Virus record (IMG/VR): IMGVR_UViG_3300045996_004599
Coordinates: 1 to 35,743 of that record
DNA from: a virus
Direction: 5' to 3' (one strand)
DNA length: 35,743 bases
In this document: positions 6,440 to 22,705 of the stretch, piece by piece
Layout of the letters: the number at the start of each line of letters is the position of its first letter
Numbering within the stretch: position 1 is the first letter of the stretch
Made by a program: the position numbers and the translations under genes
Notes under the pieces: generated by a model
What the model was told of the DNA's origin: nothing
What the model saw: only the letters and a program-made list of their open reading frames with translations
Databases searched by the model: none

Positions 6440-7577
6440 TTTGCGTATTTCCGTTTAAGAATGCTGTCATATCATCCAATGGAATGATTGTATAGTCATC
6501 AGTTTTATTGATAGGTTCTTTGAACCGCGTAAAAATCTCTTTGAAAACCTCCTCGAATACGTCACGTACAGGCTGCGTAATGTTGTTGTACATGGTATAA
6601 GCGGAAGTTATGTTGTCCTTGTTAAAGGATATGGTGCGGGTGTCCGAATGCAGCGCACCGTCTTGCTCAAATGAGCGGTATATCTTTTGCCTCACCTTCG
6701 TATCGGTGTACTCAAACAGCTTATCATTTAAAGCTGAAGTGAAAGGCATTAATTGCGGGATATCGTTTCCTTCAGGGTCGGTGCTTTCAACAACGGCAAC
6801 CGGGTTGCCTTCGCTACCGATAAATTTTTGAATCTCTGCGGTATGTTCTTCACGCTCCCGCTCATCCTCAAACTTTCCCTTTTCAACCCAAATGGTTTTA
6901 AGTTGGAAGTTGTTCTTCAAATTGTTGGTGGTGGTTTTGTCGCTTTCTATCTCGGCAATAACGCTTTCAACTACCGGATCAATAGATGACAGTGGATAGC
7001 TCTCGAAGTCATCAGAGTGCCAATAAACCTGACCTTTATAGTTATCCCAACCACCTGCGGCGTTTACCTGTTCTTCGATTACGGCAGGATCTGGATTATA
7101 GCGATCAATAGCCTCAATATCTTCCGGGGTTATCTTTTTCCGTTTAACGGAATCCACAACAAACCAAAGAGGGCTTACGCAGATCTTGCCGGGATTCATT
7201 TCTTCGTCACCAACACGGCAATACTCAAAGGGAACGTAGTTAACGCTCTCCACTTGATATAAAGCATTCCAGTTTACATGGATAGCAAAGCCCCTGAACA
7301 TTGATTTATCAGCAGATAAACGCCTCAACAGCTTATCGCAAGTAAGGCGTTTATCATTGATGTAGGCTTTATAAAAATCAACGTCTTTAAAGCCCCTGCC
7401 GATAGTAAATGATGAAAGCTTGTTGATAGCTGACTTAGCCGTGCTACACGCATTTACGAGCGTAACCATGCGCTGAGGATAGCCATTGTCAACATCATAG
7501 GCAACTATGCCCAGGTTCTTAACATCGGCTTTTAATATCCTCGATGGGTATTGCGGTAAATTCGTGATTTTAGACAT
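6420..7577 (-). CDS. Phage portal protein
   Basis: A 385-residue protein forming the dodecameric DNA gate at the capsid vertex. It has a typical N-terminal region (DVDNGYPQRMVTLVNACSTAKSAINKLSSF), a wing with FRGFAIHVNWNALYQVESVNYVP, and a C-terminal half with a clip/stem pattern ending ITQPVRDVFEEVFKEIF. Length is a little short of most portals (400-500). Its start abuts the end of the upstream gene by one base. It comes after the capsid gene in transcription order, the reverse of most tailed phages. Confidence 0.8.
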   Translation of the reverse strand: MSKITNLPQYPSRILKADVKNLGIVAYDVDNGYPQRMVTLVNACSTAKSAINKLSSFTIGRGFKDVDFYKAYINDKRLTCDKLLRRLSADKSMFRGFAIHVNWNALYQVESVNYVPFEYCRVGDEEMNPGKICVSPLWFVVDSVKRKKITPEDIEAIDRYNPDPAVIEEQVNAAGGWDNYKGQVYWHSDDFESYPLSSIDPVVESVIAEIESDKTTTNNLKNNFQLKTIWVEKGKFEDEREREEHTAEIQKFIGSEGNPVAVVESTDPEGNDIPQLMPFTSALNDKLFEYTDTKVRQKIYRSFEQDGALHSDTRTISFNKDNITSAYTMYNNITQPVRDVFEEVFKEIFTRFKEPINKTDDYTIIPLDDMTAFLNGNTQNAPTNI

Positions 7578-8077
7578 TACTCAGCTTCTATTGCTTTAGT
7601 GAGTTCAGCCTTTGTTAATTTGTCATCAGCTTCTTCGCCAAACTTTTCTTGATACTTTGCCTGAAGCTCTGCTTTGTTAAGCTTTGACAGGTCGTTTTCA
7701 TCGTGCGCTTTGCCGATAGTGCCTACTGATTCGAAATACTTTTCCAGCTTTGGGTTTTTAGCCAAAATCTTAGCTGCTATTTCATCAGTAAGGTTTGCGT
7801 TTGAATAGTGCTGCCCGTTGTTTTCAGGGTCAATCAATACGCCTTTTTTGAGTTTGAATTTTTGTTCGCTCATGTCGATTAAATTTTGATATGTAATACT
7901 TGTTAGTTTATGGAAAGCCTTGATATGGCAGTTTGAACAGCTTGCGGTAACAGCCTCTCCCAATACTCTTTTGCTTAATCTGTATAATAAATGAAGGGCT
8001 TCTTTTTCCCTTTGGTTGATCTTTACAATGAGGCTTGGAAGTTGCTGTAACTCTTGCCAGGTTTGTTCTACGTCCAT
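7577..8077 (-). CDS. Hypothetical protein with Cys/His motif and SAP/HeH-like end
   Basis: A 166-residue protein. The N-terminal part (1-66) is helical with CSNCHIKAFH, a possible metal site. The part from Met69 (MSEQKFKLKKGVLIDP) resembles a separate small phage protein, and the C-terminus (DLSKLNKAELQAKYQEKFG, then DDKLTKAELTKAI) looks like a helix-extended-helix SAP/HeH nucleic-acid-binding unit. The ATG at 8077 lies only three bases after the T-tract of a hairpin and has no ribosome site. An inner start at 7873 with an A-rich leader is possible. It lies between decoration and portal genes. Confidence 0.6.
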   Translation of the reverse strand: MDVEQTWQELQQLPSLIVKINQREKEALHLLYRLSKRVLGEAVTASCSNCHIKAFHKLTSITYQNLIDMSEQKFKLKKGVLIDPENNGQHYSNANLTDEIAAKILAKNPKLEKYFESVGTIGKAHDENDLSKLNKAELQAKYQEKFGEEADDKLTKAELTKAIEAE

Positions 8078-8079
8078 AC

Positions 8080-8106
8080 AAAAAAGGCGGCGTTTGTTGC
8101 GCCGCC
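8080..8106 (-). terminator. Hairpin terminator inside the head module
   Basis: A perfect 7-bp GC-only stem (GGCGGCG/CGCCGCC, 8086-8092 with 8100-8106) and a 7-base loop are followed on the minus strand by six Ts (8085-8080). On the plus side a T-run (8110-8115) also follows, so it may act both ways. It separates capsid/decoration genes from the portal, fibre and lysis genes. Confidence 0.8.
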
Positions 8107-8130
8107 CTATTTTTTAGTAAAATGTGAATG

Positions 8131-8724
8131 TTAAGCTGCTACCACCCAAAGAGCTTCAACGGCTGCTATTGTAGCGGCGTAGTCGTACACATTTGTCACC
8201 TCAACGGCGAACGTCTTTGGCAAATGCGGCTCCGGGTATTCTTCCTCATTCGCAAGAGTGAAGTTGAACACGCCATCGTTGGCGGCTGTATCCCTTACGG
8301 CTCCGGCTGCAATGCTCAAGCCCTGATCCCATCCGTAAATCTCGATACGGGCATCGCCTGTCTTCTGTAGGTTCTCTACAATGGCGATCACTTTACCACC
8401 TAACAAAGCCTCAGCCTGTATTTTAGTGGCAATATCCCATGTCATGATAGCGGTAGCAATCTCATGCTTCCAGTAAGTACCGTATGGACGGTTAACGCTG
8501 GTTGCACGGGGCTTGTGAGTGTTTTTGTACACCTCGAACTTATAGCCCTTCTTGCCTGTTTTCAGAACAATTTCAGAAACAACCTGCGGGTTTGTAGCAT
8601 CATACACCACGCTATCAATGTCTTCCTGATTGATTAGGGTAATAATGGTGCTAACACCCGCTACAGGCTTATTGTCGCAATCGTTCAGCAGGTCGCCGCT
8701 TATTTTATCGCATAAAGTTGGCAT
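8131..8724 (-). CDS. Virion structural protein (decoration or tail-tube-like)
   Basis: A 197-residue protein starting MPTLCDKISGDLLNDCDNK. I chose 8724 because AAGGAG lies about 10 bases before it; the frame stays open upstream to 8778 over sequence with no coding look. The body is beta-rich (GVSTIITLINQEDI, IVLKTGKKGYKFEVYKN, GDARIEIYGWDQG) and ends in a helix. It directly follows the capsid gene and precedes a strong hairpin, as expected for an abundant virion protein. Whether it is a head decoration or tail tube protein cannot be told from sequence. Confidence 0.65.
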   Translation of the reverse strand: MPTLCDKISGDLLNDCDNKPVAGVSTIITLINQEDIDSVVYDATNPQVVSEIVLKTGKKGYKFEVYKNTHKPRATSVNRPYGTYWKHEIATAIMTWDIATKIQAEALLGGKVIAIVENLQKTGDARIEIYGWDQGLSIAAGAVRDTAANDGVFNFTLANEEEYPEPHLPKTFAVEVTNVYDYAATIAAVEALWVVAA

Positions 8725-8746
8725 AATGATTTTTCTCCTTTCTTGA

Positions 8747-9820
8747 TTAGTAAGCTGCCTGAACCAGGTAATCTTCAATAACCTTCACATCCATTTTGTA
8801 AAGACCTTTGATGTTTGAAGTCTCCGACATTTTATCGTAGAATACATCGAAATCTTTAGGGCCAACGGCGGTATCGAAACCGATTGGAAGGTTTGCTTTG
8901 GTTGACATGATTGCACGGTGTGGCAGATAATACTTAGTCCCGTTGTCAAAGTCAGACTGGATAACATCATCCCACTGGTCCATTACATACACAGGAACGC
9001 CCATGATCGTAAGTGAATCAATGCCGCTTTCTAAGCGAGTGTAAGCAAGTTCGATGTTTGTAACTGACACACGCTCCCGGATGTACTGATCAGTTAAGCT
9101 ACGAGTTGCCCAGATAGCTTTATCAGCACTTGCACGTAAACGCCTGTCTGCATTCATTACAAGGTTCTGAAGGATTCCTGTAGCTACTTTGTTAGTAGTG
9201 TCATCATCATCAAAAGCCTGCGCTGCGTAGCTTACGCCTGCATTGTTTGCGATTGTGGTTTTACGTGAAGCATCACCTGCAACGATTGCGAAGATTTGCT
9301 TCCAGAAACCGTCAAGCATTGTGTAGTCCAAAGGCTCAACACCTGCGGTTAAGTTACCGCCATCGGCAACATTATCGGCTGCTGTGTCTGCAAACCAAGC
9401 AATACGAAGCGCATCTTTTACGCCTGCATCGCCAACTTCATCAACTAACCATTGTGAGAAAATCTCAGTAGTTGTCAAATCTGGTTTGTCTTTACCTACA
9501 TTCAGGTAGTACACCATGAATGTCTGTTCAAACTGATCCCAGCACTCCGACAACCAAATTTTAAGGTTAACCGGGTCCCAGAACTTTTCTGAAAGCGGGA
9601 TGTTTTTGTCGAGCTTGCCGTTTCCACAACCCAGGTCTTTTCTGGTGATTTTGGAAAGGTGCCCTAAAATGGCAATCTGTTGTTTTGCAACAATGCCAGA
9701 GCGTACATCGTGGAGTTGTTCCATAGTTGGATACTCTACCATTTGCTCAATAACGGCTTCCGCAAATGCCCGGATTTCGGTGCCGTTAAACGTTAAATCT
9801 GATGGGTCAATTACAGCCAT
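8747..9820 (-). CDS. Major capsid protein
   Basis: A 357-residue protein starting MAVIDPSDLTFNGTEIRAF. It has a helical N-arm, a QFEQTFMVYYLNVGKDKPDL segment, a mid-part with ADRRLRASADKAIWATRSLT, and a C-terminal IMGVPVYVMDQWDDVI typical of Bacteroidetes phage capsid proteins with the HK97 fold. The start overlaps the protease stop by one base (TAATG), the usual protease-capsid junction. Its size and position between protease and decoration-like genes agree with the assignment. Confidence 0.85.
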   Translation of the reverse strand: MAVIDPSDLTFNGTEIRAFAEAVIEQMVEYPTMEQLHDVRSGIVAKQQIAILGHLSKITRKDLGCGNGKLDKNIPLSEKFWDPVNLKIWLSECWDQFEQTFMVYYLNVGKDKPDLTTTEIFSQWLVDEVGDAGVKDALRIAWFADTAADNVADGGNLTAGVEPLDYTMLDGFWKQIFAIVAGDASRKTTIANNAGVSYAAQAFDDDDTTNKVATGILQNLVMNADRRLRASADKAIWATRSLTDQYIRERVSVTNIELAYTRLESGIDSLTIMGVPVYVMDQWDDVIQSDFDNGTKYYLPHRAIMSTKANLPIGFDTAVGPKDFDVFYDKMSETSNIKGLYKMDVKVIEDYLVQAAY

Positions 9821-10992
9821 TATTTCTTGTTTTTAGTGGGTTTTACAAATTTTGATTCAGGTTTATTTTCTTCTGGTTTGGTGAAATTCTGAGTGCGGTC
9901 TTTGGGAACGAACTTTGATTTCAGGTCTTTGATCTGCTTGATTGCTTCGTTTGAGGCGTTCAATGCTGTAGTAGCTTCGTTAAGTTGATTTTCTTTCTCA
10001 GCTAATTGGCTTTCAAGTTCTGCGATACGGGCGTTCAATGCTTCGTTATCGGTGTTTTCATCTTCAATCACAGCTTCTGCAATAGCTGTTACAAGCCCTG
10101 CGGCAACTGTAACTGTCCTGCCGTCTGCCAATACGTGATCGCCGTCTGCTGCTGGTTCGGTCATTGCCTCATCGTTAAAGACTGCGGTGCCTTCAGCTAA
10201 GTCGCCTGTGTAGTACAAGCTTGTGCCGTCCTCTTTCTCAGAGGACGCGTTTTCAATTGTTACTTCTTCTTCCTTTTCCTCGTTTTTGAAAAGGTTAGAG
10301 AATAAGTTTTTAATGTCTTTCAACAGGCTGGTATTCTCTTTCAGCGATGTTTGAAGTTCTTTGCTCATATCTGTGATTTTTAGTGCTTTATTAGCATATG
10401 CCCTTGTTTTGGCATCTGCGTTTTGAAAAAGGTGTTTGAATAGGTTTTCTGCTATTGTGGTTTCAGTAATGGTTTTATCCATCCTGTCTGCGAAGCCGAA
10501 TGATATTGCTTCAGTAGGTGTCATGTAGGTTTCAGCATTTATCATGTCATTGATAATCGCTGTGTCTAAGCCGGTCTTTGCTACATAAATAGAAGCAAGT
10601 ACAGCCTGGATCTGATCTAAGGTTAGAGCCTCCCGTTTTAAGTCCTCAGCATCCATTGAGCCGTAAAACCACGGGTCTATGCTCGGCTTGTGGATCATTA
10701 GCATAGCAGCTTCACAAATGATAATCTCCTGTCCTGCCATAGCGATAATGCTGGCAATGCTTGCTGCTATCCCTTCAATCCGTACTGTTACTTTCTTAGG
10801 GTGGTTTTTCAGGGCGTTATAAATCGCCCATCCATCGAATACGAACCCACCGCCTGAATGAATCCTAACTAAAAGCTCATCTTCTTTAGCAGCTTCTATT
10901 TTGGCGATAACGTTATTGGCAGACAATTCGCCAACTCCAATGAAGGAGCTATCCCAAAAATCGCAAGAATCGTAAAGAAGGATTTCAGTCAT
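9820..10992 (-). CDS. ClpP-like head maturation protease fused to scaffold-like tail
   Basis: A 390-residue protein. Residues 1-175 are an S14 ClpP-fold protease: IHSGGGFVFDG, then GIAASIAS with nucleophile Ser78, and MIHKPS with His101. The acidic residue region reads NAETYMTPTEAISFGFADR, as in many phage Clp-like proteases. Residues about 205-300 are acidic and low complexity; about 315-365 form a coiled coil (IAELESQLAEKENQLNEAT), with a Lys-rich end. Protease plus scaffold in one chain is a known capsid assembly layout. A palindromic leader at 11002-11023 sits 10 bases upstream of the ATG. Confidence 0.85.
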   Translation of the reverse strand: MTEILLYDSCDFWDSSFIGVGELSANNVIAKIEAAKEDELLVRIHSGGGFVFDGWAIYNALKNHPKKVTVRIEGIAASIASIIAMAGQEIIICEAAMLMIHKPSIDPWFYGSMDAEDLKREALTLDQIQAVLASIYVAKTGLDTAIINDMINAETYMTPTEAISFGFADRMDKTITETTIAENLFKHLFQNADAKTRAYANKALKITDMSKELQTSLKENTSLLKDIKNLFSNLFKNEEKEEEVTIENASSEKEDGTSLYYTGDLAEGTAVFNDEAMTEPAADGDHVLADGRTVTVAAGLVTAIAEAVIEDENTDNEALNARIAELESQLAEKENQLNEATTALNASNEAIKQIKDLKSKFVPKDRTQNFTKPEENKPESKFVKPTKNKK

Positions 10993-11001
10993 GTTTATTA
11001 C

Positions 11002-11023
11002 AAATATTTCATTTGAAATATTT
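11002..11023. promoter_or_regulatory. Palindromic leader/operator, copy 1
   Basis: A perfect inverted repeat: 10-base arms AAATATTTCA and TGAAATATTT around TT. It lies between the divergent protease start (10992) and the plus-strand cassette (11070). On the minus strand it is followed by GTAATA and then the ATG. The same element recurs before the gene starting at 18906. It could be a dimer-binding DNA site or an RNA hairpin near a ribosome site. Confidence 0.65.
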
Positions 11024-11049
11024 TTTTATAAATGTCGCAGGGAAATCAG

Positions 11050-11057
11050 TAATTTTG
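11050..11057 (+). promoter_or_regulatory. Candidate -7 promoter box for plus-strand cassette
   Basis: TAATTTTG matches the Bacteroidetes -7 consensus TAnnTTTG and lies 12 bases before the ATG of the cassette. No clear TTTG -33 box is seen at the usual distance, so this is a partial match. Confidence 0.4.
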
Positions 11058-11069
11058 TTGTAGGTAATA

Positions 11070-11306
11070 ATGCAACAGAAAACAGCTCACACCATTTTAA
11101 CTGAGTTAGAATCTAATGGAGATTTGAAGGTCTTGGTGGCGAATGGGTTTTGCTTCCCTTCTGTGATCAGGAACCTGGAACTTTACCGCTATGTGGATGC
11201 CCGGATTAAAACAGGAACACCAAAGATGAAGGCTGTTTTAGATGCTGAAGTGGAATTTAAGATGTGTGAACGGGCGGTTTATAATGTGCTTAATAGTTTT
11301 AAATAA
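11070..11306 (+). CDS. Small plus-strand cassette protein A
   Basis: A 78-residue protein starting MQQKTAHTILTELESNGDL. It is mostly helical, and residues about 50-76 (TPKMKAVLDAEVEFKMCERAVYNVL) resemble a helix-turn-helix, so a DNA-binding role is possible. It lies on the opposite strand to the whole late operon, between protease and tape measure, with its own -7-like box and a palindrome upstream. The next plus-strand gene starts 5 bases after its stop. Family not recognised; a regulator or a moron-type gene are both possible. Confidence 0.65.
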   Translation: MQQKTAHTILTELESNGDLKVLVANGFCFPSVIRNLELYRYVDARIKTGTPKMKAVLDAEVEFKMCERAVYNVLNSFK

Positions 11307-11311
11307 CTGCT

Positions 11312-11485
11312 ATGAATGGTGAACAATTGGGAAAAGAACTCCCTCCCGGTGTCGAATTGTTATTTGACCACATGGAGAGGCGATATTATATACACGTTCA
11401 GGAAAGCAATTTTTTTGCCCGGGTTAACCCTAAGCGGCATAAAAAATATGGACACCTGTTTTATAAGATAAGTGGGGTTAAATAG
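11312..11485 (+). CDS. Small plus-strand cassette protein B
   Basis: A 57-residue protein starting MNGEQLGKELPPGVELLFDH. It is basic and aromatic (ERRYYIHVQESNFFARVNP, then KRHKKYGHLFYKISGV), with a small beta-type look. The ATG is 5 bases after protein A, so they form an operon, and its end overlaps the tape-measure stop tail-to-tail by 8 bases. No known family; the strand and the pair arrangement suggest a separately acquired unit. Confidence 0.6.
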   Translation: MNGEQLGKELPPGVELLFDHMERRYYIHVQESNFFARVNPKRHKKYGHLFYKISGVK

Positions 11486-14066
11486 TCGCATTATTCACCA
11501 CAGCATTGCTTCTTTGCTGTGCGCTTGTAACATCCCTCACATCAGTAATGATATTCACAGCCGATAAACCCGCTATCATAGCGTTAGTCATATCGAATTG
11601 AGCGGAAATACTATCGCTAATACCGCCAACGTAACTACCTGAAGCAATACCACCTGAAGCCATTGCAAAGCCGGGAGCCAAAGCCCTCCCACCGTGAGCC
11701 ACGTTGATAGCTGATAAGGTGGCAAGTGCAAACGGATTCCGCACCGCTTCTGCAACGATTACAGCCTCTCCGCTTCTTAGCCGTGCGTTTGTATTGTCCG
11801 TACGTGAATAGCCCGGCAAAACGCTTCCTTTGCCGTCACTTTCAAAAACACCACCCTCGGCAAATCCTTTAGGCATAGATGTTAAGGATTTAGCGGCTGC
11901 GATACCTGCTGCGAGTGCTGATAACGTTGCGAAGATTGCCCCAATGTTTAGCGGGAATACAAGCTTACCCTGCGAAACAATAGACTTGACTTGTTCCTGA
12001 ATAATTAAAACGTTATTCCTTAACTGCTGTGCGGCATCGAGCTTGGCAGATACTTCGGCGGCGATCTTAGCGGCTAAAGTATTCTTTCCAACAACTCCCT
12101 GAAATAGCGTGCTGAATTGTTGAATACGGGCAACCTTATTGTTAAAGACCGCTTCATCTAACTTATCCTGATCGAATTGATTTTTTGCATAAACTTCTAA
12201 AAGAGCCTCGGCATTGCCTTGCGCTGCTTCCAGATCCATTTCAAATTTCGCATCTAAAAACTGTTGCCGTGCTTCTAATTCCTGTTCCGGCGTTTGGGCG
12301 GTGTCGATAGCTAATTGCGCCCGTGCCGCTTCATCTTTTAAGAATTGTTCAAGGTCTTTATCCCTAAGCTCCTTATTGAGCTTGGCGGTTTCTTCTCGCT
12401 GCGATTTTTGAAGCTCTTGCCTCTGTGCGAACTGCTGCCTTAATACTTCGTCTTGTTTGAGGTCGCCTAAAGCTAACGCCGCAATGGTCTGATCAATCTG
12501 TTTATCAAGATTGGCAAGTTCTCTTTTATGGTTTACCTCTAAAGTTTGCTGTTTTCTTAATCCTTCATCCTGAATGTTAGCAATCTCTAAATCAATAGTC
12601 TTGTTGGTTTCGGAAATGATAAGCTCGTTGTATTCGATAATCTTTTGCAAGTCCTCAACTTCAAACTGCCGGCGCACGGCCTGCAGCCGGGCAACCCGCT
12701 CCCGTTCCAATGTTTCGGTAGTCCTGCCAAACTGCTTGTACTTAACTACCTTCTCATCAATATCGTGGTTAATATCATTGATCTCTTTTTGACGAACGCC
12801 AACGATTAGGTTTGCAATATTGGTTTCGCTGTCGAGCCGTGCCTGATCTGCTGCCTGCAGCTTTTGGTTTGATTCCTCGCGTTTCTTGGTGGCCGCTTCG
12901 TTTAGCTTTTCCTGACGTGCATTAAGCTTTTCGGCTTTGGCGGCATCGGTTTGCCTTGATTGGTCAATTTTAGCGTAAAGGTCGTTTAGCTTGTTATAAT
13001 CTTCATCCCGAGCCTGCCCGTTCTTTTCTTTCATCTTGATTAAAGACTGTTGCGCCTTAATCTCATTGCCGATTGATTGTTGGGTAAGCTGGTCAGCTTT
13101 CTTATAGAATGATTCAGCCTGTTTCAAGCTATCGGCATCGCCTTTGGCACGTAATACGGCTGCATCAGCACGTAATTTAGACGCTTGTTTGTTCAATTCT
13201 CGCCCGGCATCTTCTGCGTTCTGCTCTAACGTCTTGATATTAACTCCCTGATTGAAGCCTTCCTTAACAGTTTCCCCGAATTTCTTAACGTTATCCAAGA
13301 TATTCCCGCTCAAAAGTGACTTGAAATCCTTCAAAGCTTGCATCGGATTGGTGAAAATGTTCACCAGGAACTCACCAACCTTAGTAAGTGGTGTGATAAA
13401 TGCCTGAAAAGCACCTTTTAATCCGGCAATTCCACGCTCTAACTGCTCCGCTCCCTTCTCTGTTGAGGCAAAATAAGCTACTAAACTGGCAATTAACGGG
13501 ATTATTAAGCCTATCCCGGTAGCTGCTAATGCAAATTTGAAGCCTTGAAGCCCTGTAATAGCAGGTTTGATCACTCCTGAAAGTGAACCCAAGCCGTCTG
13601 TGTATTGGCTTAACCCCGGAACAGCCCCAACAATCTCTTGTCCTGCGCTTTTAAAGGTATCCCGGTAGTTACCAACGTTCCTGCGGTTGTCGCCTACTGC
13701 CTTTTCGTTAACCTTCAGCTCATCAGATATTGCCCGGATTTGGGTTTGAAAGGCTTTGCCTTGTAAAGTATTATCCCGTTCCTCTTTTGAGAGTGAGTTA
13801 TACTGCTGAGTAACTAAAGCAAGTTGCGCCCGAAGCTGGTTGTTTGAACCTATCTCGGATTGTGATAGCTGCAAATAGCTTTTCTGTTCGGCTTGTAATG
13901 TCCGTAACATTTGGGCGTTCTGAACATACGAGGCAGAATTTTCATCGCCCGAAGCTTTCAAAGCCTTCTGCTCATCCTTAATCGCTTTGATGCTATTGGC
14001 TAATTCCTTAGCCTTTTTTGCTGCATCTTCTGCGTTGATGTTTACATCTATTATTACGCTCGCCAT
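11478..14066 (-). CDS. Tail tape measure protein
   Basis: An 862-residue protein that sets tail length and helps DNA entry. The first 130 residues are a coiled coil (NSIKAIKDEQKALKASGDEN and following). Residues about 176-200 form a strongly hydrophobic stretch (GIGLIIPLIASLVAYFA). Residues about 280-660 are very long charged helices rich in Gln, Glu, Lys and Arg, followed by another hydrophobic region (about 700-735) and a Gly-rich C-terminus. This pattern is characteristic. At about 1.5 Angstrom per residue it predicts a tail near 130 nm. It abuts the tail-tip gene upstream by one base. Confidence 0.9.
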   Translation of the reverse strand: MASVIIDVNINAEDAAKKAKELANSIKAIKDEQKALKASGDENSASYVQNAQMLRTLQAEQKSYLQLSQSEIGSNNQLRAQLALVTQQYNSLSKEERDNTLQGKAFQTQIRAISDELKVNEKAVGDNRRNVGNYRDTFKSAGQEIVGAVPGLSQYTDGLGSLSGVIKPAITGLQGFKFALAATGIGLIIPLIASLVAYFASTEKGAEQLERGIAGLKGAFQAFITPLTKVGEFLVNIFTNPMQALKDFKSLLSGNILDNVKKFGETVKEGFNQGVNIKTLEQNAEDAGRELNKQASKLRADAAVLRAKGDADSLKQAESFYKKADQLTQQSIGNEIKAQQSLIKMKEKNGQARDEDYNKLNDLYAKIDQSRQTDAAKAEKLNARQEKLNEAATKKREESNQKLQAADQARLDSETNIANLIVGVRQKEINDINHDIDEKVVKYKQFGRTTETLERERVARLQAVRRQFEVEDLQKIIEYNELIISETNKTIDLEIANIQDEGLRKQQTLEVNHKRELANLDKQIDQTIAALALGDLKQDEVLRQQFAQRQELQKSQREETAKLNKELRDKDLEQFLKDEAARAQLAIDTAQTPEQELEARQQFLDAKFEMDLEAAQGNAEALLEVYAKNQFDQDKLDEAVFNNKVARIQQFSTLFQGVVGKNTLAAKIAAEVSAKLDAAQQLRNNVLIIQEQVKSIVSQGKLVFPLNIGAIFATLSALAAGIAAAKSLTSMPKGFAEGGVFESDGKGSVLPGYSRTDNTNARLRSGEAVIVAEAVRNPFALATLSAINVAHGGRALAPGFAMASGGIASGSYVGGISDSISAQFDMTNAMIAGLSAVNIITDVRDVTSAQQRSNAVVNNATI

Positions 14067-15985
14067 TATTGTAGTTTTACTAAGCTGATTTTACATTCTT
14101 CGCCGGCGATATAATCAAACACGCCGTTATTATAGTAGTATGCCCCGGTGTTTTTATCGAAGATTGGCAGGGTAAAGTCCAACGTTTGAAGGTCGGTCGG
14201 TTTTAATAAGATGTTCCGGTTCATTACGAACGGGCGGTAAAGCATCCTTAGAATCTCCGGGTAATGCTCATCAAACAACTCTTGATAGGAAAGACCGCTT
14301 TTGCCTGTGGCTGTGAAGTACGGCAAAGAGATAGTGTTTGCGCTTTGTGTGTTCGCTCCATCGGTAAAAATTATCGTAGTGTTTACCTTTTCATCTACTA
14401 AAATCCGAGGTTCCGTTTTGGTCTTGAACTCTAAAGAGGTGAGCGCATCTTCAATCTTCTTAATTTGAGCAACGGAAACGCCGCTCATCTTCATGACGGA
14501 AACAGAAGCCGCGAACTTTGAGGTGAATAAATCAACATCGGTTTTTAAGGTTTGATTGTCAAAAACCATAACCCCCCGACCCGTGGCATCTGGAACCGCG
14601 TTATCCTTTTTATAGTTGCCGTAATTGTTTATACCGTACGATCCGAAAGAGTAATCAATATCAGGCGGCGAATCGGTAAACTTTTCAGTCCAATCTAAAG
14701 CCTGGTATTTATTATAATAAACTTCTTCCATGTTCACTAACCGGATGTGCTTTCGGTAGTTGTCCGGCACCACGATAAGACCGAAATTTTGGAGGAAATC
14801 CTTAAAGAAATCCTTTTGGCTGATGTCTGGTAGTGTTGCCTCGAGCTGAACAGGTTGACCGAATATCACTTCAGTAGGCTGATAAGTGATTGACACCTGT
14901 GCGCCGGGATAAAGGTGTCCGACTATTCGCTGAGTGTCGGGATCGTTATGCCATGCAATGCGGATTTTATCGCCAGCTTCTAAATCTACATCGGCTTCTA
15001 AAACCTGATCGGCATACACAATATCGGTAAATTCCTGCCCGGCTATGTGCTGGTTTTCAGCAACGGTTGACCATGTAGAGCCGTTCCATTTTTCAATGCG
15101 TACAACGATGTAAGGAGTGCTGCCACCCTTGTACTGATCTCTCACCATAATCGTATATGGAGCCATCCGAACCTTTGCTTTCATGGTAGCCGGTGCGGTG
15201 TATTCTGTGCCGCTCCAATGATTGCCGGGGTCGGTTGTGAAGTCATCAGGGAAACTTGCCACGCCATCCCTGACATCATTGCTAAATTCCTGGTCAACTA
15301 AAGTTTTTGCTGAAGCGGAAAAAGTATTGGCAGCATTTATAAAACTTTGCCCGTGTTCAAACTTATCGTTAGAAAAAGGGATAGTTGATTTGGTATATCG
15401 TATGTCGGTCGGTTCGCCTTGTACGGAATAACCAGCTTCAGCGATTATCTTTTGAATGATGGTCTTTCTGAAGGTTGCCGGGCGTAGCTGCTTGACGTTT
15501 ACCGACCGTTCCGTTTCGCTTATAGAGCCGTAATCAATAACACTCCATGTATAGCCATCGGTGTTGGCTTGAGACGCTACAATAGTCGCCAAATCCCATG
15601 TATGTTCATAAGCAGATAAATCTAAATCCCGGATAGACTTGCCTTCGAGTAAATCAAAGAAGCCAATTAATCCCGAAAGAGCCTGAACACTGATGAAGTC
15701 TTTGCAGCTTGTGATCAAAGCTATCCCATTTGTCAAAATCTCTATCCCATCCTGAACGATCTTGCAAGTGTTCTTTCGGTACGGCTGAAGTCCAATGATT
15801 GAACCCGTGTCTGGAAAGCCGCAAGCACGACGGTTATTCTGCGTTAACGGAAGCTTGAAATTATTAGTCGTGAAAGCCTGCCTATCTTTTAGCTCGGCAA
15901 GGTTGTTGACCTCGTAAGACAGGGCAATAGGATTATCCTTTTCGGATAAGTCGCAAAGAATTCCGTTGATGTAAAGTTCTTTCAC
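14066..15985 (-). CDS. Large tail-tip/distal tail protein
   Basis: A 639-residue protein starting at a GTG (MKELYINGILCDLSEKD). The start is fixed by a GTGA overlap with the micro-protein upstream. The N-terminal third (LAELKDRQAFTTNNFKLPLT, TCKIVQDGIEILTNGIA) is typical of Bacteroidetes phage tail proteins that lie next to the tape measure. The middle (about 230-370) contains a carbohydrate-binding-like beta module (WSGTEYTAPATMKAKVRM, PYIVVRIEKWNGSTWS), and the C-terminal third is a further tail domain. Likely part of the tail-tip or hub complex; exact equivalent unknown. Confidence 0.75.
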   Translation of the reverse strand: MKELYINGILCDLSEKDNPIALSYEVNNLAELKDRQAFTTNNFKLPLTQNNRRACGFPDTGSIIGLQPYRKNTCKIVQDGIEILTNGIALITSCKDFISVQALSGLIGFFDLLEGKSIRDLDLSAYEHTWDLATIVASQANTDGYTWSVIDYGSISETERSVNVKQLRPATFRKTIIQKIIAEAGYSVQGEPTDIRYTKSTIPFSNDKFEHGQSFINAANTFSASAKTLVDQEFSNDVRDGVASFPDDFTTDPGNHWSGTEYTAPATMKAKVRMAPYTIMVRDQYKGGSTPYIVVRIEKWNGSTWSTVAENQHIAGQEFTDIVYADQVLEADVDLEAGDKIRIAWHNDPDTQRIVGHLYPGAQVSITYQPTEVIFGQPVQLEATLPDISQKDFFKDFLQNFGLIVVPDNYRKHIRLVNMEEVYYNKYQALDWTEKFTDSPPDIDYSFGSYGINNYGNYKKDNAVPDATGRGVMVFDNQTLKTDVDLFTSKFAASVSVMKMSGVSVAQIKKIEDALTSLEFKTKTEPRILVDEKVNTTIIFTDGANTQSANTISLPYFTATGKSGLSYQELFDEHYPEILRMLYRPFVMNRNILLKPTDLQTLDFTLPIFDKNTGAYYYNNGVFDYIAGEECKISLVKLQ

Positions 15986-16053
15986 TTCGCTTTATATTGT
16001 GAGGCGATAAACCAAAGGCTGATGATGATTAACAGGATGCCAACGATTATCAT
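15982..16053 (-). CDS. 23-residue membrane micro-protein in tail module
   Basis: A short frame starting MIIVGILLIIISLWFIA and ending SQYKAK: one hydrophobic helix with a positive tail. Its ATG overlaps the upstream stop (ATGA, 16050-16053) and its TGA overlaps the next gene's GTG start (GTGA, 15982-15985). Being joined by 4-base overlaps on both sides in an operon where such coupling is the rule supports translation. No function is known. Confidence 0.55.
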   Translation of the reverse strand: MIIVGILLIIISLWFIASQYKAK

Positions 16054-16394
16054 TTCAATTTGATAAAAGCCTCCAAAACCTTATCGAAGTTTGCCTGAGT
16101 ACTTTTAAGATGCTCCTTTGTAGCAACCAACTGACCCTCATTATTGTCCTGAACCTTTGTTCTTATACCCAATGATGCTGCCTGGTCTGAAATCAACTGA
16201 ATAAATGTTTCCCCTACCCTCAATGGCATCTCTAAAAATGGTTTGTACTCTCCGGCGATGCCTTCAGTCATTTCGGTTACAATTACATCGTTCCCATCAT
16301 AATGGTAATTGCTTCGATACCGCCCTGAATTGTCAATCATGTAGATTTGGATTCGATCTCTAAATCTATCTCGTTCAATAAATAACTCTATCAT
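16050..16394 (-). CDS. Hypothetical tail-module protein
   Basis: A 114-residue protein starting MIELFIERDRFRDRIQIYMI. It is beta-rich at the start and helical at the end (STQANFDKVLEAFIKLK). It sits between the SprB-containing protein and the membrane micro-protein with ATGA overlaps on both sides, so it belongs to the tail operon. LRVGETFIQLISDQAASLGI may be a helical packing segment. Family not recognised. Confidence 0.65.
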   Translation of the reverse strand: MIELFIERDRFRDRIQIYMIDNSGRYRSNYHYDGNDVIVTEMTEGIAGEYKPFLEMPLRVGETFIQLISDQAASLGIRTKVQDNNEGQLVATKEHLKSTQANFDKVLEAFIKLK

Positions 16395-18451
16395 TGCCTT
16401 TGAATATTAATATCTGGTAATTGAATGGTGAACTTTACATCGAACAGGTTGCCCCGTGTGTTGTATAGCTGAAAAGAGCCTGTATTTAGCTCAACTGTCT
16501 GCCATTTAATCGGCGAAACCTTGCTTAACATTTGAACTTTAATCGAAGTAGCAAGGGATTCTAAGCCTTTAGCCTGGTCAACATCCAATCCAATAGCTCC
16601 GAACTGAACTGATTTGTTAGCCGACTTCTTGATAATGTCCGTAATCGTGTCATCATTCGCCCAGTCAAAGACATTGCGGTTCACTTTGGTATCGTTGGAG
16701 GTGCTTAATGAATAGTCTTGACGATAGCCAAATCGCCAATAATTCCAGCCTCCGAGCTTGTTCATCCATTTTAAATAGATATACGGGTCATTATCGCATG
16801 GTGTATTCACTTTGACAATAACAGGCTGTGTGATAAAGAAAGGTGCTTCATCTGTTCCTCTGTATAACTGAAGTTGGATATACTCAACATTAGCAGCCGG
16901 TGTCCCGGGCATCATTAGCCTATTGATCCCCAACGCTTCGATAATGTCTGCCTGATCAACAGGTGGCAACGCTCCATTCTGAATGATGAACTGCGATGCT
17001 GCAGCCGCCGTTAAAAACCCGGCATCGCCGTTTAAGAGGAACGAGTTAACCACACCCCCGCCAATAAGATTCTTGTTCACATCTAAAGAACTTGCACGGA
17101 CTTTAATCGGTGTGCCTACAATGCTCTCCGAAAAGATGAAAGAAATATCCCACGGCAAGCCAACCCAATGTGAAGGCTCTGCAAAATCAGTTAAGAACTT
17201 CGCTTTTAAATCCTCGTTCGGTTCATTGTAGAAAGGCACATATTCAGCCATATTGCCGCCGTATGTATCGCCCAACTGTTTAGCGGAGTAGGTGACGTAA
17301 AGCGGATACGGCGCATCGTACCACGGGTTATTTGAGCCGTCCCAAACTTCTTTAAACCGAATGGTAAAACTCGCGGACAGGTTGCCGTCCTTCCAGTTTA
17401 GCGCATCGTATTTAAATTCATCCTTTGCGCTTACGATTGATTGCAGGTAGGCTTGAAGGTCAGCCCGGACGAATCCCGAAAGGTTTGGCGACCAGGTGCC
17501 GGTAACTGTCTTTAGTGTGTATGGTGTTGCCCCTGTTTTTATCTCGATCTCAATTTTATAGTTTGGCTTGGATTGCTCAATAAAAACCACGCCCGTATCG
17601 GAACCGAAGTAAGATGATAAGAACCGGAGAACTGATCTGCCTCCGTCAACAGCTACCGAAAATGCAGGCTGGTTAATATCGTACTTCGCACCTTTGACAA
17701 CTACCGAAGTAGCTAACGCTAAAGCCTCTTGCCCGGCATCGTATAGCCCGTTAATCTTAATGTCAATATAACCGCCCCCGGCATCGGCTACGCTGAATAT
17801 GGCATTGTCATTTCGTTGGAAGTTGATAACGATGGGATTGAAAGCCGCATTCCATTTGCTTAGGTTATTAGTGGATACCTGAACAACTGGAAGACCTGCG
17901 GTAAATCCTCCCGAAATTGGATTGTTGAACGCCTCAATGGTGAAAGCATACTGGATTAAACAGCCGTTATCATCGTGAGCGTACACTACATAGTTGCCGG
18001 GCTGAAGTCCTGAAAACACGCCGGATACTTGCCAGTCGCTTCCATTCAAAGAATATTCCAACCCGGTAAATGAGGTTGAAGCGACAGCCGTAACGCTGCC
18101 ATCGTTGCCGCCTTGTTCGGTTTCGTTAGATGCCGTAACTGAGGTGAACGCTAAATCACAAGAAGGAGGTGCCGGGTCTACTGGCGTAGTGGAAGCGATA
18201 TATGCAAAAGGGGTATTAAGGCTCGCTAAAATTTCATAAGATACACTTCCGTCATCGCTTAAGAAATTACCAATAAGTTCATCAGTGTCCCTGCCCCTTT
18301 CAAAGTTGGTAACGGTGCTTTTTTCGCCATCAAGACCTAAATAATCAACTGATATGGTGCCGGGGAAAGCATTATCAAAGTTTATCCGATAATCTTCAAT
18401 GTCTGCTGTTTCTGACGGAAAATCAAACCCGTCTATTACGCTTACGCTCAT
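16391..18451 (-). CDS. Large tail protein with SprB-like repeat domain
   Basis: A 686-residue protein starting MSVSVIDGFDFPSETADIED. Residues about 98-173 are an SprB-type repeat: a C-x-L start (CDLAFTSVTASNE), NDGSVTA, FTGLEYSLNGSDWQ, FSGLQPGNYVVYAHDDNGC. This module is known from Bacteroidetes cell-surface adhesins (gliding protein SprB). The rest is beta-rich, with tail-type segments such as YIYLKWMNKLGGWNYWRFGYR. It overlaps both neighbours by 4 bases. It is probably a tail-tip or side-fibre protein in which the repeat helps attachment. Confidence 0.75.
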   Translation of the reverse strand: MSVSVIDGFDFPSETADIEDYRINFDNAFPGTISVDYLGLDGEKSTVTNFERGRDTDELIGNFLSDDGSVSYEILASLNTPFAYIASTTPVDPAPPSCDLAFTSVTASNETEQGGNDGSVTAVASTSFTGLEYSLNGSDWQVSGVFSGLQPGNYVVYAHDDNGCLIQYAFTIEAFNNPISGGFTAGLPVVQVSTNNLSKWNAAFNPIVINFQRNDNAIFSVADAGGGYIDIKINGLYDAGQEALALATSVVVKGAKYDINQPAFSVAVDGGRSVLRFLSSYFGSDTGVVFIEQSKPNYKIEIEIKTGATPYTLKTVTGTWSPNLSGFVRADLQAYLQSIVSAKDEFKYDALNWKDGNLSASFTIRFKEVWDGSNNPWYDAPYPLYVTYSAKQLGDTYGGNMAEYVPFYNEPNEDLKAKFLTDFAEPSHWVGLPWDISFIFSESIVGTPIKVRASSLDVNKNLIGGGVVNSFLLNGDAGFLTAAAASQFIIQNGALPPVDQADIIEALGINRLMMPGTPAANVEYIQLQLYRGTDEAPFFITQPVIVKVNTPCDNDPYIYLKWMNKLGGWNYWRFGYRQDYSLSTSNDTKVNRNVFDWANDDTITDIIKKSANKSVQFGAIGLDVDQAKGLESLATSIKVQMLSKVSPIKWQTVELNTGSFQLYNTRGNLFDVKFTIQLPDINIQRQ

Positions 18452-18906
18452 GCCGCTTGTAATAAGTTTTCAATATCTGATTTTATCTGAGCCATATACA
18501 CGGCTGTTAGCTTATCTGTGAACTGCTTTAACCTTGCCTCGGTTAATGTTTCCTTTAAAACATCCCTGCCTTGCCTGTGTAGCTTTGTACCGTGTTGAGC
18601 GATACGTTTGGCAACTATCCAAGCCATTGACCGGGGCAAGCCCCTTGCGGCACACCATTCAATGATTGCGTAAAGTGGTGGCATCTTGCCGGGCCCACGC
18701 CCACGGAAAACAAACTCAATAGAATCCGAGCCGATTAACTGCCCGGTTGTTGGTCCGATATTCGTCACTTGCAAAGACCGTTTGCTCTTGCCCGTGGCGT
18801 TCCTGTCTTCGGTATCCATGTAAGCGATTAGCTCATCACGGATAGCAAGCAGGAACTCTTCAATAAGCTCCTCCCCTAAAACAAGTATTTCGCCAACGCT
18901 TAACAT
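18448..18906 (-). CDS. Gp10-like minor tail/neck protein
   Basis: A 152-residue protein starting MLSVGEILVLGEELIEEFL. I chose 18906 because the frame upstream of it (to 19005) overlaps the end of the previous gene with unlikely sequence, and a palindromic leader ends just before this ATG. The central part TGKSKRSLQVTNIGP and SIEFVFRGRGPGKMPPLYAI, then a helical WIVAKRIAQHGTKLHRQGRD, resemble HK97-gp10-type head-tail joining proteins. Function inferred. Confidence 0.6.
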   Translation of the reverse strand: MLSVGEILVLGEELIEEFLLAIRDELIAYMDTEDRNATGKSKRSLQVTNIGPTTGQLIGSDSIEFVFRGRGPGKMPPLYAIIEWCAARGLPRSMAWIVAKRIAQHGTKLHRQGRDVLKETLTEARLKQFTDKLTAVYMAQIKSDIENLLQAA

Positions 18907-18915
18907 TATTACTTT

Positions 18916-18931
18916 TATTTCATTTGAAATA
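18916..18931. promoter_or_regulatory. Palindromic leader/operator, copy 2
   Basis: An inverted repeat with arms TATTTCA and TGAAATA around TT, between the stop of the upstream gene (18932) and the ATG at 18906. On the minus strand 18 bases are identical to the protease leader, then three bases differ, then GTAATA is shared before the start codon. Confidence 0.65.
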
Positions 18932-19399
18932 TTACTGAACACAAAAAACACGAGGCTGCGTATCGGTAAGAGAAATGTTAATCTCAATCCCAACCACGTT
19001 AACATCGTAAGTATCTATAACTGTCACTCCCGGCACGCTTTCGCTTATGTCATTAAAAGCGTTTTCCTTGTTCAATAAGAAAATAAATTGAGCCGCCAAT
19101 GAGCGCATGGCTTCTATCTTGCTTTCCCGCTCCGATGCTTGTTCGCCCATCACCTCCTGATCAATGAACTGTAGAAATAAATTATACCTGTCATAAATCT
19201 GCCCCATGCTTGAAACCTTGAAGCCCATTTGATCGGGTTCCAAAAGAACAACAGCCGGATAGCTTTCATTATCACCGTTGATATTCTCATCCGACTTGCG
19301 GCCGTAACGAAAATAGATGGGCTGCTCTGTGGTATCTTCCAAAAGAACACCTGAACGCATTGTAGCAACGATGGCGGATATTTGTGTTTTAAGATTCAT
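18932..19399 (-). CDS. Tail completion-like protein
   Basis: A 155-residue protein starting MNLKTQISAIVATMRSGV. It has a mixed alpha/beta pattern (YPAVVLLEPDQMGFKVSS, IYDRYNLFLQFIDQEV, then a long helix AMRSLAAQFIFLLNKEN, and a beta end TYDVNVVGIEINISL), as in tail terminator or completion proteins. It sits directly before the gp10-like gene, the usual place. It overlaps the gene upstream by 11 bases. No diagnostic motif, so moderate confidence. Confidence 0.6.
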   Translation of the reverse strand: MNLKTQISAIVATMRSGVLLEDTTEQPIYFRYGRKSDENINGDNESYPAVVLLEPDQMGFKVSSMGQIYDRYNLFLQFIDQEVMGEQASERESKIEAMRSLAAQFIFLLNKENAFNDISESVPGVTVIDTYDVNVVGIEINISLTDTQPRVFCVQ

Positions 19400-20664: not shown

Positions 20665-20868
20665 ATGATAAAATTCAACGGTGGCAACTTCAAAAACATG
20701 CTTGAAAAGAAAGCATCTTAAAAAGCAGAAGATCTAATGAAAGCCCGTATTCGGTCAGCCTTCCCTGACATTAAAGACTTTTCAGTAAAATTTGATATGA
20801 AAAACGAAAAGTTTACAATTCTTGGATTGACAGACGACCAGGTTCGTTTTGTGTTAGAATCCACTTAA
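20665..20868 (+). pseudogene. Small plus-strand gene broken by in-frame TAA
   Basis: The plus frame reads MIKFNGGNFKNMLEKKAS, a TAA at 20719-20721, then in the same frame KAEDLMKARIRSAFPDIKDF and on to FVLEST before a final TAA. The two parts read as one 67-residue alpha/beta protein with a single stop codon inside (one base from GAA, CAA or AAA). The second part could be translated alone from the ATG at 20737 (43 residues). It overlaps the large terminase end tail-to-tail by 4 bases. Function unknown. Confidence 0.55.
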
Positions 20869-22307
20869 AATATCGTTTTAGGACGTTTTAAAGTGTAGCG
20901 GCTTGAATATTTATTAAACTCATCTTTCAGAACCGTGGTAATGAAGTATCGCTTGCAATCGCTGAAGTGTCCGTATTTCTCATAGCTTGCCCCCGTTTCT
21001 TTGTCCGTAACTCTTTTTTTAAGGATTGTTCCATCAGAAGCCTCCTTTGCCATAGAGTAATCTTCAATTGATTTACGACAATCGGTGTCAATCTCAATAG
21101 TCCATCCATCGTAACCGTTCTCGTAGATCTCATTTATGAAGTCGCCTGAGATTGAAACGCCCGGTGCCGACTTTTGTACCTTATTGGAAATCCTGAAACC
21201 TTCAGAAGTTATCTGAGCGATATACTTATCAAAAAAGCTTCTGCCGTCATCATCGACTGTGCTTTTAGCATTGGCAGATGGATCGCCATAAATATGCAAG
21301 GTGTCAGCATAGAACATATCGCTTAGCCATTTGGCTGTTAGCTTTGCTGATTTACTCGCTGTGTTGTTCGGGCTTGTGCAGGGTATATCCTTTATCTGCC
21401 TTAGCTTTTTCTCATTGAGCAAGACCTGCCATACCTGAACAGAGATGTACGGATTAACGTTATTGTCTAATACAACGTGATAGGCTGTCTCTGCTGGCTT
21501 CAAATCTTTGACGTGGATGGTTTCATCAAAACATTTCCAAAAGCTCCCACCTGTTCGCCTGTAGCCCCAAAGTCCGAGCGTATAAGTTTGATACCAATAC
21601 GCATTGTTCTTGCTTTTCTTGTAGCCTTCATAGATGGCTTTCCGTTGGGATGAACAATATGGGTTATTCCGATAAGTGGTATGGGTTGCTCTGATATTGA
21701 ATTTCGCTGGTTCATCATCCGGGATCTCAATTGTCTTACACCATGTCCAGCTAAGTTCTTCGGTGTGTTGGAAATACTCTTGCCAAAGCCAAAAATCAGT
21801 GTAGTTGCCTTCACATTCAGGATTGAATGTAAAGTATGTTTTAACATTGCCCTCATTATACCTGAGAGACGTTAAAACAATCGTGAAATCTTCGTTATCA
21901 ATTTGGTTGCCCTCTTCAATCCAACAATGAGAGGGGTTGTTAAATGATTTAATCCTGCCTACGTCATCAAGTCCTCTTCCATAAAAAGCATTGCCATTAG
22001 CCTTGCACCTTATCTCCATCCTGGTTTCATTGAATGAAAATAGCTCAGTAAGCCCCCAAGCCTCTATAACTGATTTGATCAGGCTGTATTGGGAATCCCT
22101 GACGGTATTAAGAACCTTGCGGATGATTAGGCATTGAAAATAGTCTGATGATAGGCAAGTTTCTACAAGCTGCTGTGCGGTATGTCTTGATTTACCACTA
22201 TCCCGGCCACCGTAAAGAAACTCTATGTCTATATTGCTATCGCCAAGAAGATGCCTGTAGCATGGGAGATAAACACTTTCGTCTATTTCAATTTCAATTG
22301 TTGGCAT
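20865..22307 (-). CDS. terL: Terminase large subunit
   Basis: A 480-residue ATP-driven DNA packaging motor and nuclease. Walker A is GGRDSGKS (residues 33-40), Walker B WIEE (about 129-132), followed by TFNPE coupling-type sequence (about 160-164). The C-terminal RNaseH-like nuclease shows acidic positions in VVLDNNVNPY (Asp281) and IYGDPSAN (Asp342). This is the PBSX/terminase_3 type. I chose the ATG at 22307 (MPTIEIEIDE) over an upstream one at 22325 because the coding look begins there. Its start overlaps the small terminase gene by 14 bases. Confidence 0.92.
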   Translation of the reverse strand: MPTIEIEIDESVYLPCYRHLLGDSNIDIEFLYGGRDSGKSRHTAQQLVETCLSSDYFQCLIIRKVLNTVRDSQYSLIKSVIEAWGLTELFSFNETRMEIRCKANGNAFYGRGLDDVGRIKSFNNPSHCWIEEGNQIDNEDFTIVLTSLRYNEGNVKTYFTFNPECEGNYTDFWLWQEYFQHTEELSWTWCKTIEIPDDEPAKFNIRATHTTYRNNPYCSSQRKAIYEGYKKSKNNAYWYQTYTLGLWGYRRTGGSFWKCFDETIHVKDLKPAETAYHVVLDNNVNPYISVQVWQVLLNEKKLRQIKDIPCTSPNNTASKSAKLTAKWLSDMFYADTLHIYGDPSANAKSTVDDDGRSFFDKYIAQITSEGFRISNKVQKSAPGVSISGDFINEIYENGYDGWTIEIDTDCRKSIEDYSMAKEASDGTILKKRVTDKETGASYEKYGHFSDCKRYFITTVLKDEFNKYSSRYTLKRPKTIF

Positions 22308-22551
22308 CCCGTTTAGATGTAACAACTATCTTAAGTGTAGATTCACCTTCGACCTCCGTAGGAATAAGCCTTGCCGCCAGCTTATAGAACTCGGTTAGGT
22401 TTTCTTTTCCCCAAGCCTTAAGATTCGCTTTTGGATCAGATTGGAACTCAGTAAACACATCGGCAAAGACTTCTTTAACAAGCTTTGTGCTTTTGTTGAC
22501 AGCTCCCTTCGGCTTGCCGGGGTTCCCTTTCTTAAATTTAGTATCAGCCAC
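22294..22551 (-). CDS. Terminase small subunit-like DNA-binding protein
   Basis: An 85-residue protein with a GTG start (MADTKFKKGNPGKPKGAVNK). The basic Gly/Pro/Lys N-terminus followed by a helical region (ENLTEFYKLAARLIPTEVEG) matches the DUF5681-like proteins that act as, or take the place of, terminase small subunits. It directly precedes and overlaps the large subunit. A candidate late promoter lies 27-34 bases upstream of the GTG. The role is inferred from position plus the DNA-binding-type composition. Confidence 0.7.
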   Translation of the reverse strand: MADTKFKKGNPGKPKGAVNKSTKLVKEVFADVFTEFQSDPKANLKAWGKENLTEFYKLAARLIPTEVEGESTLKIVVTSKRDANN

Positions 22552-22577
22552 CGTATTTTCCCGTAATTATCGGTTAA

Positions 22578-22585
22578 CAAATATA
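22578..22585 (-). promoter_or_regulatory. Candidate late promoter -7 box
   Basis: TATATTTG on the minus strand fits TAnnTTTG and lies upstream of the small terminase, in the largest gap between early and late genes. Followed by TT, as at 20617. No clear TTTG -33 box, so it may need an activator. Confidence 0.45.
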
Positions 22586-22593
22586 CCAATTAT

Positions 22594-22606
22594 TACAATT
22601 ATTGTA
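22594..22606. promoter_or_regulatory. Palindrome upstream of late promoter
   Basis: Arms TACAAT and ATTGTA around a single T. It lies just upstream of the -7 box, where the -33 region would be, and could bind a late activator or repressor. Confidence 0.4.
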
Positions 22607-22705
22607 TATGAAATAATTTATTGCCAGAAATGCAACTGGTTCCCCCGCCCCATTGCATAATCCGTAATGGTTAGGTTACTTTCCCGGTGGATTGGGCAGG
22701 GGTGG
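22607..22705. other. Gene-free leader between early and late genes
   Basis: About 100 bases without a supported gene. The part at 22645-22700 is more GC-rich than its surroundings (runs of C and G), unlike the AT-rich promoter region beside it. An 11-codon frame (MGRGNQLHFWQ) can be read on the minus strand, but nothing supports it as a gene. Confidence 0.35.

Follow-up and report, generated by a model that had tools for sequence, protein, structure and literature searches.

Two distant structural genes of the prophage analysed here are preceded by the same palindromic leader, which raises the question of what such a shared non-coding element is for in a densely packed late region. The window, by which we mean the whole 35,743-nucleotide stretch under analysis (IMG/VR record IMGVR_UViG_3300045996_004599), is the prophage of a Bacteroidota host, with a tyrosine integrase, recombination genes and a long minus-strand late region containing terminase, tail genes, tape measure, protease, probable capsid protein and portal. 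The genes at issue are those for the head maturation protease (9820–10992, minus strand) and for a gp10-like protein (18448–18906, minus strand; homologues in four relatives). The protease gene is followed by the probable major capsid protein gene (8747–9820, minus strand), placed by its position since its PHROG match is of unknown function. The first-pass annotation had offered two readings of the leader, a dimer-binding operator/promoter or an RNA element acting on two transcripts.

On the minus strand, copy 1 reads AATATTTCAAATGAAATA-ttt-GTAATA-aac-ATG (ATG at 10992) and copy 2 reads AATATTTCAAATGAAATA-aaa-GTAATA-ATG (ATG at 18906), so that the described order of 18 shared bases, three differing bases and an identical GTAATA is borne out by sequence and coordinates, as is the distance of about 7.9 kb between the copies (measured, 7,911 bp). 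The 16-bp palindrome of site 1, TATTTCAAATGAAATA (11005–11020, minus strand), lies between a divergent helix-turn-helix (HTH) gene and the protease gene, and the identical palindrome of site 2 (18916–18931, minus strand) between the stop of the 18932–19399 gene and the gp10-like gene, both being located 10–12 nt 5′ of the ATG. The GTAATA hexamers (10996–11001 and 18907–18912, both minus strand), which had been placed just before the start codon, do abut it in copy 2 but stand 3 nt off in copy 1. As reported, copy 1 is a perfect dyad with 10-base arms (22 bp, 11002–11023), and it is the only perfect inverted repeat in the window with arms of at least 8 bases (spacer 0 or 2).

By eye no third copy of the leader had been found, but there is one. 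A repeat search returned positions 22590–22617 (82% identity over 28 nt), where the palindrome TATTTCATATACAATA (22600–22615, minus strand) is followed by the spacer att and by GTAATA (22591–22596, minus strand). This site 3 lies upstream of the terminase module, the first gene past it being a small one with a weak DUF5681 match (22294–22551, minus strand) that precedes the terminase large subunit gene (20865–22325, minus strand). The three sites thus head the packaging (terminase), tail/connector (gp10-like) and head-protease blocks. Searching the 3.6-Mb genome with the 25-base pattern TATTTCANATGAAATANNNGTAATA, allowing up to three mismatches, gave exactly three matches, all within the prophage and in late-gene orientation. 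The exact core occurs twice in the same 3.6 Mb and its reversed-pattern control not at all, and a chance origin was rejected on these counts.

The unit is longer than the palindrome, comprising 25 bp with two inverted half-sites and a third, direct half-site nine bases further on towards the gene; the first-pass annotation had recognised neither this third half-site nor the HTH gene next to site 1. In the window clade the bases at offset 20 match the right half-site with a mean identity of 5.22/6, versus 1.84 over all offsets, and in a group of about 21 prophages of a related genus (g14) the corresponding values are 3.27 and 1.52. Position +22, which played no part in the selection of the g14 sites, is C in 42 of the 45. 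A tally of one-arm versus two-arm matches in the same set was discounted, since the selection pattern biases it. A letter-blind search for the architecture recovered window sites 1 and 2 (about 0.1 expected in shuffles) together with three sites in the relatives G040 and G047, against a background of about 0.2 or fewer hits per shuffled locus. The third half-site varies along with the palindrome, being TGnnATA in the window, TGAATA in G040/G047 and nnCATA in g14, as it should if all three halves are read by a single protein. No third half-site was seen in the Pelobium and Pedobacter sites described below.

The relatives themselves came from an alignment with the capsid protein, protein searches with the protease alone having returned none in the genome or the viral contigs. 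G040 (Arcticibacter) and G047, whose protease homologues share 51% and 46% identity with that of the window, carry three sites each of the form TATnCA-N4-TGnATA-N3-TGAATA, that is, the layout of the window in other letters, and two of the three occupy the positions known from the window, one ahead of the gp10-like gene and one in the leader of the protease. Across 401 genomes of the family this pattern has five matches, all in these two prophages and in late-gene orientation (control, 0). The prophages of Pelobium and of Pedobacter SYP-B3415 carry the palindrome TATACATATATGTATA in clusters, with exactly three such sites in the 4.5-Mb Pedobacter genome and four in Pelobium; one palindrome in each phage includes a start codon (L159, 786–801; L248, 1501–1516), that of the positional counterpart of the window gene 18932–19399. 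The g14 prophages, from the same Sphingobacteriaceae-like family as the window phage, carry TATGCC-N4-GGCATA-N3-nnCATA. The palindromic part gives 101 matches in 21 prophages versus a mean of 16 for shuffled half-sites, and most of the clean non-coding copies precede the genes for the terminase small subunit, the tape measure protein, the HTH protein or the protease. The motif, whose presence before the same genes of relatives had been proposed as a check, is therefore not conserved in its exact letters, but its architecture at block starts is.

Two aspects of this distribution bear on what the sites respond to. Sites are alike within one phage and orthologous sites differ between phages, as expected if every phage has its own reader protein. 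Moreover, no homologue of the terminase large subunit or its module was detected in the four compared phages, and the presence of a window-type site on such a module indicates that the site tracks a trans-acting factor rather than the adjacent gene. Mosaicism was seen in the window, the capsid gene (8747–9820) being closest to the Pelobium/Pedobacter phages (60%), and the protease (9820–10992) and HTH genes to the G040/G047 phages (45–50% and 36–40%, respectively).

Several further elements were encountered in the surveyed loci. Matches to the exact 16-mer in viral contigs were mostly within genes, and among the matches listed only L026 (IMGVR_UViG_3300030744_000107), a phage contig with terminase-like genes, had two intergenic copies. 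These are exact occurrences of TATTTCATTTGAAATA at 1440–1455 and 9525–9540, one 19 nt before a TATATTTG box and the other 9 nt before an ATG; no relative of the HTH protein was found within the 11 kb examined. Ungapped matching of protease leaders to the remainder of each locus was underpowered. Perfect palindromes before the proteases of L208, L217, L219, L222 and L244 were dropped, as they are unrepeated elsewhere in those loci. A 24–26-base leader is repeated several times 5′ of the protease in L210, L212, L217, L219 and L244 (about 7200–8900) and holds a GCCGTAACTTTGCA-like -7 box (TAACTTTG), which looks like a different repeated late promoter. In L177, from a phage of Pedobacter BS3, a long inverted repeat, CACCTATAATG-CTCGA-CATTATAGGTG, spans a possible protease start at about 8850–8905, with a spacing unlike that of the tripartite sites.

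If a protein reads these sites, the most likely candidate, judged from its sequence and genomic context, would be the 78-aa all-helical HTH protein encoded at 11070–11306 (plus strand) beside the protease gene. It is the only non-structural protein of the window with homologues in all four compared phages, in each of which its gene is close to a site, and in the majority of the relatives recovered the gene is located 5′ of that for the protease. In the phages of G040, G047, Pelobium and Pedobacter it comes immediately after the gene for the tape measure protein, on the same strand. In the window it is inverted relative to the late genes (the tape measure gene occupies 11478–14066, minus strand), and a consensus -7 box, TAATTTTG (11050–11057, plus strand), 12 nt 5′ of its ATG predicts a promoter of its own with an 8-nt leader. 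Members of the family comprise 75–90 aa, and sorting them by recognition helix yields groups that agree with the site groups (window, G040/G047, Pelobium/Pedobacter and g14). The family is spread more widely than recognisable sites, and Mucilaginibacter L173 has a similar recognition helix and no such site in its 21 kb.

The structure model of the HTH protein is confident (five helices, mean pLDDT 94), and a structure search with it returned no confident solved homologue. The solved Mor structure, 1rr7, ranked 48th (E 7.5, TM 0.31), so that the Mor fold was not recovered; the weak fold matches include the TrpR and KorA repressors, and among viral structures the top match was a phage protein labelled 'Homeodomain-like' (E 2.9e-4). 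At the sequence level, the family shows similarity to HTH families and, more weakly, to Pfam Mor and to PHROG 836, 'late transcriptional activator' (best 4.9e-4). The Pfam Mor (PF08765) matches involve 3 of 30 members with a best E of 0.0072, a similarity that falls short of the Pfam cut-off, and the window protein itself has no match to this model. A relative in Bacteroides phage BS-TP3 has been deposited as a 'Mor domain-containing protein' and occupies the same gene context, after a tape-measure-like gene. For the window protein itself, no direct similarity to PHROG 836 or to the BS-TP3 protein was detected.

The position of the sites relative to promoters speaks to the sign of control. In Bacteroidota promoters the -7 box (TAnnTTTG) spans -12 to -5 (PMC6847099). 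Such a box lies exactly 14 nt downstream of the palindrome at window site 3 (TATATTTG, 22578–22585, minus strand; predicted start near 22573), at one G040 site and at one G047 site. At this distance the palindrome covers about -42 to -27, that is, the position of the -33 element. No consensus TAnnTTTG box was found at window sites 1 and 2. In g14 the boxes instead precede the palindrome, at offsets of -17 (terminase sites) and -11 (protease sites, mostly with one mismatch), a geometry typical of a repressor operator. Most tape-measure sites have no -7 box, and several of them directly follow a terminator-like hairpin, which implies a promoter at the site. Over all g14 sites such hairpins are modestly enriched (11 of 45 versus 13% in the control). 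A single geometry cannot fit all sites: terminators and the -33 position favour a promoter with an activator, and upstream boxes favour repression. On balance we place activation ahead of repression, as being roughly twice as probable.

The main competitor is accordingly a repressor operator or roadblock, by which a phage repressor would silence the structural genes in the lysogen by blocking initiation or read-through. Besides the g14 consensus-like -7 boxes immediately 5′ of palindromes, which predict starts at or just before the site, this reading is consistent with sites that are few, oriented, intergenic and near start codons, with the consensus promoter box of the window HTH gene, and with the presence of TrpR and KorA among the fold matches. 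However, an HTH gene directly after the tape measure gene looks like a late gene, an odd place for a lysogenic repressor; tape-measure sites that follow terminator-like hairpins and lack a -7 box would leave nothing to repress; and three sites of the window clade have the palindrome on the upstream side, at -33. We consider repression unlikely on these grounds, though it deserves to be taken seriously. Slightly less probable still is that the operators are as described and their reader is another phage protein, such as an early or middle regulator. Sites are not recognisable in every phage with the HTH gene, and for many of the early proteins in the window no family could be assigned. Against this reading, the HTH protein alone among the non-structural window proteins is shared by all four compared phages, encoded near a site there, and helix groups and site groups match in four groups.

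An element acting in RNA was the second reading of the first-pass annotation; as a leader hairpin of the protease and gp10-like mRNAs that would steer translation or processing, it appears very improbable. The sites do lie 10–17 nt before start codons, and more stable folds than in shuffled sequence were obtained for site 1 and for one g14 site (z -2.3 and -1.9). The palindromes contain ATG, however, and Bacteroidetes mRNAs disfavour upstream AUGs as well as structure near starts (PMC6847099). Where a -7 box lies downstream, the transcript of that promoter would exclude the palindrome; in addition, four of the five G040/G047 sites that match fully leave position 4/13 unpaired, and the conserved third half-site is direct and unpaired. 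Secondary structure is not conserved, since window site 3 and the orthologous G040/G047 sites fold no better than shuffled sequence (z 0.45, 1.1, 1.5 and 0), so that action at the level of DNA is probable. Host regulators often have prophages under their control, and a palindromic element could in principle be recognised by one of global reach, for instance the SOS repressor of Bacteroidetes. Yet the motif is confined to the prophage in each host genome and phages of related hosts spell it in different letters, so that we give this explanation hardly any weight. The Bacteroidetes SOS motifs, CTAA-N5-TTAG or GGA-N5-TCC (PMC8565304), differ from the present element in half-sites and spacing, and a LexA-like operator was discarded as a candidate.

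Overall, the other reading of the first-pass annotation, a dimer-binding operator/promoter, gains support from the inverted and direct half-sites, from the layout at the block starts of relatives and from the overlap with -33 at one copy of the window. We favour a model in which 25-bp tripartite DNA operators heading the packaging, tail/connector and head-protease blocks would be bound by a phage-encoded, sequence-specific protein, such that late transcription is set as one regulon. As the binder we propose the small HTH protein whose gene lies next to the protease site, and we expect it to activate as Mu Mor/C do; both its role as binder and the sign of control are what we infer from the sequences. 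Taken as a whole, late-regulon operators with this protein as their likely reader and activation as the likely outcome seem to us a reasonably probable account.

The family of probable late-gene operators in Bacteroidota phages is real and, as far as our literature searches reached, previously undescribed; these searches found nothing on late-gene timing in Bacteroidota temperate phages. More tentatively, the whole may amount to a late system not described before, in which a minimal HTH protein of 75–90 aa and a tripartite 25-bp operator with a period of 9 would start late units even where a host -7 box is missing, the half-site letters being re-wired clade by clade with the architecture fixed. 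The findings provide a concrete regulon that can be tested, in terms of its sites, their layout, the blocks targeted and a candidate regulator that is conserved in dozens of prophages. The clade-wise change of half-sites at fixed architecture constitutes a natural data set for how the specificity of a small HTH protein changes together with all of its sites. Small regulators that are orthogonal to one another would also be of use as tools in the genetics of Bacteroidota.

Among known systems, the Bacteroidota sigma-A promoter (TTTG/TAnnTTTG) has its consensus -7 box at site 3 and at some sites of relatives, whereas the tripartite element is no part of the host promoter and sites 1 and 2 lack the box. 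The stoperators of mycobacteriophage L5 resemble the present sites in being repeated and oriented within short intergenic gaps of a prophage but are asymmetric and far more numerous, as opposed to three to six palindromic sites mainly at late-block starts; the site geometry in g14 would be compatible with a block by a prophage repressor. With PHROG 836 and the 'Mor domain-containing protein' of BS-TP3 the likeness lies in the similarity of the HTH family and in the same place after a tape-measure-like gene, the BS-TP3 record giving no binding site or function. Another parallel is Mu Mor/C, with its late promoters lys, I, P and mom. Phage Mu C protein binds upstream of or overlapping -35 (PMC4461284), and here, by geometry, the dyad would lie next to or over the -33/-35 region at three window-clade sites, and not at sites without a box or with an upstream box. 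Both systems involve a small phage HTH protein (here a candidate) and sites distributed over several late blocks, that of the protease gene among them. They differ in that the candidate here comprises 75–90 aa, is all-helical and is matched weakly by the Mor model and solved fold, and in that the site has three parts, a consensus -7 box is missing from most sites and the host belongs to the Bacteroidota. By analogy, the operator system may work in part like Mu Mor/C.
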